Assembly: GCA_016845205.1 (NCBI GenBank)
Contig: JAERTA010000051.1
Span: 1-33,507, forward strand
Direction of reading: 5' to 3'
Origin: Gammaproteobacteria bacterium
Lineage (GTDB): Bacteria > Pseudomonadota > Gammaproteobacteria > PS1 > Pseudothioglobaceae
DNA: 33,507 bases
Positions 62 through 20,534 of the stretch are shown piece by piece. Each line of letters opens with the position of its first letter. The first letter of the stretch is position 1. Position numbers and translations under genes: made by a program. Below the pieces are notes generated by a model. The model made no database searches. It saw only the letters and a list, made by a program, of their open reading frames with translations, and had not been told where the DNA came from.

Positions 62-138
62 CGGAGTGTAGCGCAGTTTGGTAGCGTATCTGGTTTGGGA
101 CCAGGTGGTCGGGGGTTCAAATCCCTCCACTCCGACCA
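62..138 (+). tRNA. tRNA-Pro (anticodon TGG)
   Basis: 77 nt cloverleaf-compatible sequence CGGAGTG...CACTCCGACCA, anticodon loop GGTTTGGGACC, GGTTCAAAT T-loop, encoded CCA. Confidence 0.96.
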
Positions 139-167
139 AAAAACTTTTTCCTAGGGTTTTAAAAAAT

Positions 168-244
168 GCGCCCATAGCTCAGCTGGATAGAGCAACGGCC
201 TTCTAAGCCGTAGGTCTCACGTTCGAATCGTGATGGGCGTGCCA
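168..244 (+). tRNA. tRNA-Arg (anticodon TCT)
   Basis: GCGCCCATAGCTCAG...CCTTCTAAG...GTTCGAATC...TGGGCGTGCCA, encoded CCA. Confidence 0.96.
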
Positions 245-257
245 CTAAAAAGTTTAT

Positions 258-334
258 GGCGGGAATAGCTCAGTTGGTAGAGCCCCGGATTGTGATTCCG
301 GTTGTCGCGGGTTCGAACCCCGTTTCTCGCCCCA
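258..334 (+). tRNA. tRNA-His (anticodon GTG)
   Basis: GGCGGGAATAGCTCAG...GATTGTGATTC...GGTTCGAACCC...CTCGCCCCA with the extra 5' G typical of tRNA-His. Confidence 0.96.
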
Positions 335-20051: not shown

Positions 20052-20077
20052 AAAAAAAAGCACCCGAAGGTGCTTTT
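20052..20077 (-). terminator. intrinsic terminator of hup
   Basis: Minus strand AAAAGCACC-TTCG-GGTGCTTTTTTTT: UUCG tetraloop stem plus U tract. Confidence 0.9.
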
Positions 20078-20108: not shown

Positions 20109-20384
20109 TTATCCATTTACGGCATCTTTGAGTGCCTTACCAGCTTTAAATGCTGCCACTTTAGAAGCTGCAATCTGAATAGATGCACCTGTTTGTGGGT
20201 TACGACCTGTACGTGCTGCACGATCTCTAACAACAAAAGAACCAAAGCCTGTTAGTTGTACGCCGTCACCGCTAGCCATAGCGCCAGAAATAGCGTCTGT
20301 TGTTGCATTTAATGCACGACCTGCGTCTGCTTTAGAAAGGTTTGCTGCTGATGCGATTGCATCAATTAATTCTGATTTATTCAT
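20109..20384 (-). CDS. hup: HU-family DNA-binding protein
   Basis: 91 aa; [56 protein letters not shown]. Confidence 0.96.
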
Positions 20385-20401
20385 TTCATCTCCTCGAAAG
20401 T

Positions 20402-20473
20402 TTATACAAAAATACTAAATGCTAAAGGTTTACTACACAAGGAGGTAAGAGAATGAAAAACGTATCTAATCAT
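20402..20473 (-). other. candidate 23-codon leader ORF (uORF) upstream of hup
   Basis: ATG...TAA encoding [28 protein letters not shown] 10 nt upstream; stop 17 nt before hup ATG. Confidence 0.4.
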
Positions 20474-20505
20474 ATGTTGCTAACCTCCAACATTTAGCCA
20501 CCTCA

Positions 20506-20534
20506 ATTATAAGGAAATATTCAAGCAATATCAA
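20506..20534 (-). promoter_or_regulatory. sigma70-like promoter for hup leader
   Basis: Minus strand TTGATA - 17 nt - TATAAT. Confidence 0.75.

Follow-up and report, generated by a model that had tools for sequence, protein, structure and literature searches.

The mRNA of the HU gene hup begins with a leader that is a real, lineage-specific conserved RNA structure. The gene was studied in a 33,507-nucleotide stretch of DNA, called the window here, from a 1.24-Mb genome. The leader opens with a long 5'-terminal helix, P1, whose loop contains a conserved pyrimidine segment, X, resembling the 3' end of 16S rRNA (Table 1). Translational control of HU by this leader is probable, and its mechanism is what we infer below. 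Comparison of the sequences gives a nearly even chance to the reading that we prefer, in which a lineage-specific leader of the pseudoknot type would sequester the Shine-Dalgarno sequence (SD) and thereby control HU translation.

Table 1. Features of the hup locus and its leader, with positions in the window.
Feature	Position	Strand	Remark
hup (HU family, 91 aa)	20109..20384	-	flanked by smpB and rlmN
-35 hexamer TTGATA	20529..20534	-	17-nt spacer to -10
-10 hexamer TATAAT	20506..20511	-	
hup leader	about 20499-20385	-	predicted transcript start ~20499
P1 5' strand GCUAAAUGUUGGAGGUU	20482..20498	-	starts at or adjoins predicted transcript 5' end
Local hairpin ATGTTG...CAACAT	20474..20493	-	not kept in relatives
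23-codon uORF	ATG 20473 to TAA 20402	-	ends 17 nt before hup ATG at 20384
X segment UUUUUCAUUCUCUUACCUCCUU	20439..20460	-	within P1 loop; 16S anti-SD-like; complements hup SD and start-codon region
Y, P1 3' strand AACCUUUAGCAUUUAGU	20414..20430	-	
U-run 3' of P1	20408..20412	-	lost or interrupted in L020, L024, L025, L064
hup Shine-Dalgarno GAGGAG	20390..20395	-	proposed target of X
Intrinsic-terminator-like hairpin downstream of hup	20056..20077	-	
Three consecutive tRNA genes at window start (Rfam)	62-331		

The original prediction placed a TTGATA-N17-TATAAT promoter on the minus strand upstream of hup, and the promoter is present there and matches the consensus at 11 of 12 positions. The other predicted elements, CTAAATG (20497-20491), CATTTAG (20421-20415), GGAGGT (20488-20483), ACCTCC (20446-20441), the local hairpin and the 23-codon upstream ORF (uORF), were likewise located in the sequence. 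For comparison, leaders were defined as the sequence between the -10 box and hup, and 47 of them came from 83 genomes of a SUP05/Thioglobaceae-like family. The family is taken to be the SUP05/Thioglobaceae group because the named collection lists an 'uncultured SUP05 cluster bacterium' and a Bathymodiolus symbiont among the relatives. A -10-like hexamer lies directly 5' of P1 across the 47 leaders, for which it also served as the trimming anchor. Genera g1 (that of the window), g3, g6, g7 and g8 make up clade A, and g5 makes up clade C.

P1 has 17 bp in the window sequence. The 99-nt leader folds at -26.1 kcal/mol (z = -4.35; none of 200 shuffles was as good), and in the lowest-energy fold CTAAATG and GGAGGTT lie inside one unbroken 17-bp helix with AACCTTTAGCATTTAGT, which differs from the fold originally drawn. 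In clade A the partner of the first ~17 nt ends ~85 nt from the start, and RNAalifold, unaided, recovers this helix. Across 21 clade A leaders 95.5% of the cells were paired, compared with 31-51% when the partner was slid, and all 17 pairs vary somewhere in the clade. Changes within clade A are mostly one-sided, for example G-C to G-U, and compensatory evidence was therefore taken between clades. The helix of g5 is the same and its sequence is different. With clades A and C pooled in register (15 pairs), 88.5% of the cells were paired and 40 changes were two-sided, for example AU to GC and UA to CG at adjacent pairs. The covariation score of the pooled clades was 0.426 compared with 0.292 for shuffled alignments, and none of 500 shuffles scored as high. 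Because many two-sided cells are inherited from few events, partners were also permuted between genera (p = 0.001). P1 thus shows the compensatory change that marks a conserved structured cis-RNA. The original prediction had been made to depend on covariation among related leaders, and this was found for P1; the predicted outer pairing CTAAATG:CATTTAG is both conserved and covarying. The original proposal of a structured, probably regulatory HU leader with an anti-SD segment holds.

The MFE z-score of the leaders of the rlmN-adjacent hup (type-1) is weak in g5 and g9, so the structure claim rests on covariation in g5 and is weak in g9. P1 is reduced to a few outer pairs in g9, and the g11 leader (L064) folds its own P1 variant. 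The g9 leaders (L047, L049, L054, L056, L059, L062, L065, L148, L149, L156 and L157) have lost most of P1 and kept a near-invariant ACTAA...CTTTTAGTA; in many of them GAGATG...CATCTC(C) replaces GGAGG...ACCTCC.

A recognisable version of the leader is present in most genera of the family, and a DNA search with the leader recovered it in about 22 family genomes. A covariance model (R1) matched 52 of the 83 genomes at E <= 0.01, some of them weakly, and its strong matches were confined to positions upstream of type-1 hup in this family alone. The leader is thus constantly associated with one gene. Searching 274 genomes drawn from the class with R1 gave no match outside family members. A few weak matches lay elsewhere than at hup; one in the window's own genome (G000:C66) is an ordinary terminator before another gene. 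Rfam gave just unrelated matches below the gathering score for the leader and zero matches in 8 related loci, plasmid look-ups gave nothing relevant, and a literature search found no cis leader of this form described for HU. The corresponding hup leaders of g10 and g4 (L041-L044, L046, L050, L052, L147, L150, L040) are U-rich and without structure, and in some g10 genomes the hairpin sits on the second HU paralog instead (L197, L198). A small single-contig g6 genome has a hup remnant whose reading frame is broken, together with a degraded leader copy (L203; G034:C1:361900-362500).

Segment X contains ACCUCCUU. Clade A loops carry UUUUCAUUCUCU(U)ACCUCCUU, g5 loops carry UUUUGAUUCUUUCCUCC, and in g9 the motif is often CAUCUCC; all of these are anti-SD-like. 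CTCC occurs in 34/47 type-1 leaders, compared with about 8.4 expected from shuffles. Among leaders of the family's third type of HU paralog (type-3) it was found in 0/23, and 76 HU leaders from other organisms, almost all gammaproteobacteria, had CTCC at the chance rate and no excess of complementarity to the ribosome binding site (RBS).

The relevant SD is more likely GAGGAG, that of hup itself, than the GGAGG of the original prediction. Complementarity of X to the hup RBS is strong in g5, g5b, part of g1, g7 and g9, moderate in the window leader, and weak in g6, g8 and g11. In g5, 14 consecutive pairs can form that start at the SD and stop just short of the ATG (UUUUGAUUCUUUCC:GGAGAGAAUUAAAA), and in g1 and g7 X complements the SD plus the start codon. 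Against shuffled loops, structured leaders had a mean z for X:SD of -1.6, family leaders without the structure had, together with paralogs, -0.1, and the 76 other HU leaders had +0.36. In g11 and in several leaders of g6 and g9, z was about 0. Permutation between genera gave p = 0.05, driven by g5 and g5b. When the own RBS was compared with 14 other RBSs of the window, z was about -3 in most g5 leaders, about -1.3 in g1 and about 0 in g6. Judged by these three controls, the predicted X:SD pairing is convincing in g5, suggestive in g1 and unsupported in g6. The hup SD and start codon hardly vary across leaders, and covariation therefore has little power for this pairing.

In the mechanism we propose, the first ~17 nt of hup mRNA and a segment ~70 nt further on make up P1, as covariation shows, and the loop of this hairpin displays X, conserved in sequence, as an anti-SD mimic. 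X would then pair with the downstream SD and start codon. On top of a formed P1 this would be an H-type pseudoknot, with linkers of about 18-20 nt that are long enough by a rough count. The pseudoknot would block 30S loading, and HU translation would be low. If the P1 5' strand paired with X, as originally predicted, the SD would be freed; because X is transcribed before Y, this state may be an intermediate of folding or the ON conformer. HU feedback or temperature as the trigger are guesses.

The pairing GGAGG:ACCTCC, originally predicted as the switch helix, competes with both P1 and X:SD. It is energetically possible in most leaders, but it shows no partner-specific signal across genera (p = 0.29, compared with 0.001 for P1). 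Compatible changes occur in single lineages (L061; GAGATG:CATCTC in g9). The main partner of GGAGGTT is AACCTTTAG (20430-20422) and not ACCTCC. The local hairpin that would hold the SD in its loop was seen in the window sequence alone.

HU copies other than the rlmN-adjacent hup (type-2) occur in G000 (C42), G079 (two), G046, G047, G065, G070 and G031. Their leaders (L001, L191, L192, L194, L197, L198, L202 and L286) have a different 5' hairpin upstream of the start codon, with a stem sequence unrelated to P1, energies of -12 to -27 kcal/mol and a mean MFE z of -3.1. The loop carries CUCC in 7/8 leaders, compared with 1.8 expected, or UUCCUC. Hairpins with an anti-SD loop are therefore a recurrent feature of HU messages within the family. 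The type-2 loop pairs weakly with its own RBS, at -3 to -7 kcal/mol in most leaders. Because CUCC is kept although this pairing is weak, own-RBS pairing may not be the sole function of the loop and another partner is possible. An HU that shares 86% identity with the C42 paralog is encoded on a viral-classed contig (L206, IMGVR_UViG_2660238815); the hairpin in its leader lacks CTCC.

P1 might instead be a 5'-terminal stabiliser that protects an abundant HU mRNA from 5'-end-dependent decay, with a loop that has no regulatory role. The best-supported element of the leader does start within a few nt of the predicted transcript start, and a comparably strong but different 5' hairpin occurs in the second paralog family. 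This explanation is nevertheless rather unlikely, since it leaves the anti-SD loop in both paralog families and the 14-pair RBS match of g5 unexplained, and little of P1 survives in g9. In some regulatory small RNAs a C-rich loop binds a GGAG-bearing RNA or a protein, and the anti-SD loop could act on such a partner in trans. Conservation of the type-2 loop despite its poor own-RBS match is consistent with this, as is its better pairing with strong SDs, the sibling hup RBS included. That complementarity is generic, however, with no preference for the sibling over other type-1 RBSs, so cross-talk between the paralogs was rejected as a candidate, and we consider action in trans improbable.

The original prediction had a translated uORF with its own SD switch the leader between the local hairpin and the long-range SD:anti-SD pairing and thus control hup. 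A GGAGG with an ATG about 10 nt away, opening an ORF that overlaps X, is present in 7/9 g1, 2/2 g7 and 1/2 g8 leaders. The frames, lengths and peptides differ, and the uORF is missing in g6 and L014; most of the data thus bear out the lack of uORF conservation that had been named as refuting the prediction. Neither a conserved start with a conserved peptide or frame, nor a conserved local hairpin, nor a genus-wide GGAGG:ACCUCC signal was found, and uORF or leader-peptide control is very improbable. A transcription attenuator, with P1 and the U-run as intrinsic terminator and the 5':X pairing as antiterminator, is scarcely probable either. Mutually exclusive 5':X and 5':Y pairings do exist, and many leaders have a U-rich tract directly after P1, with as many as 10 U in g5. 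However, the stem base is AU-rich, the loop is ~50 nt, P1 with the U-run was not called as a terminator, and a conserved G+C-rich stem with a U-tract was not found. Four leaders lack an intact tract (Table 1); it is not universal and is therefore probably not a terminator.

Pseudoknots that sequester the SD are known from leaders such as the preQ1 (reviewed in PMC11625349) and SAM-II riboswitches and those of ribosomal-protein genes, e.g. rpsO, in which a hairpin loop pairs with the RBS and blocks initiation. The loop of the hup 5' hairpin can likewise pair with the downstream RBS. Unlike those leaders, the hup leader has no Rfam match and no known ligand, it would govern a DNA-packing protein, and its pseudoknot is putative. 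The tisB leader (PMC7708055) resembles the hup leader in its structured 5' end, its pseudoknot and its sequestered RBS, the last two being putative in hup; it differs in that the tisB pseudoknot aids ribosome standby and another element sequesters the RBS. Leader-peptide attenuators share with some members of the hup leader a small ORF in a structured leader, but the hup uORF peptide is not conserved and has no regulatory codons, and there is no clear terminator.

HU is one of the most abundant bacterial DNA-packing proteins, and to our knowledge its control at the RNA level is little described beyond a trans-acting small RNA, RaiZ. In Salmonella, RaiZ represses hupA in trans with ProQ (PMC5391140). 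There RNA pairing at the HU RBS region limits HU synthesis, as it would with the hup leader, whose anti-SD lies in cis. We tentatively raise the possibility, somewhat doubtful as yet, that these leaders belong to a class of cis-regulatory RNA, not described before, that is attached to HU genes. In such a class a 5' hairpin would show an anti-SD copy to its own message, would have arisen or been kept with unrelated stems in two paralog lineages, and would sense HU level or temperature as two partners compete for the anti-SD loop.

SUP05-type marine sulfur bacteria are hard to culture, and the hup leader provides a short, testable sequence element from them. It also exemplifies a message in which a hairpin loop mimics the ribosomal anti-SD. 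Our comparison suggests that the cell may control HU production by folding the hup message.
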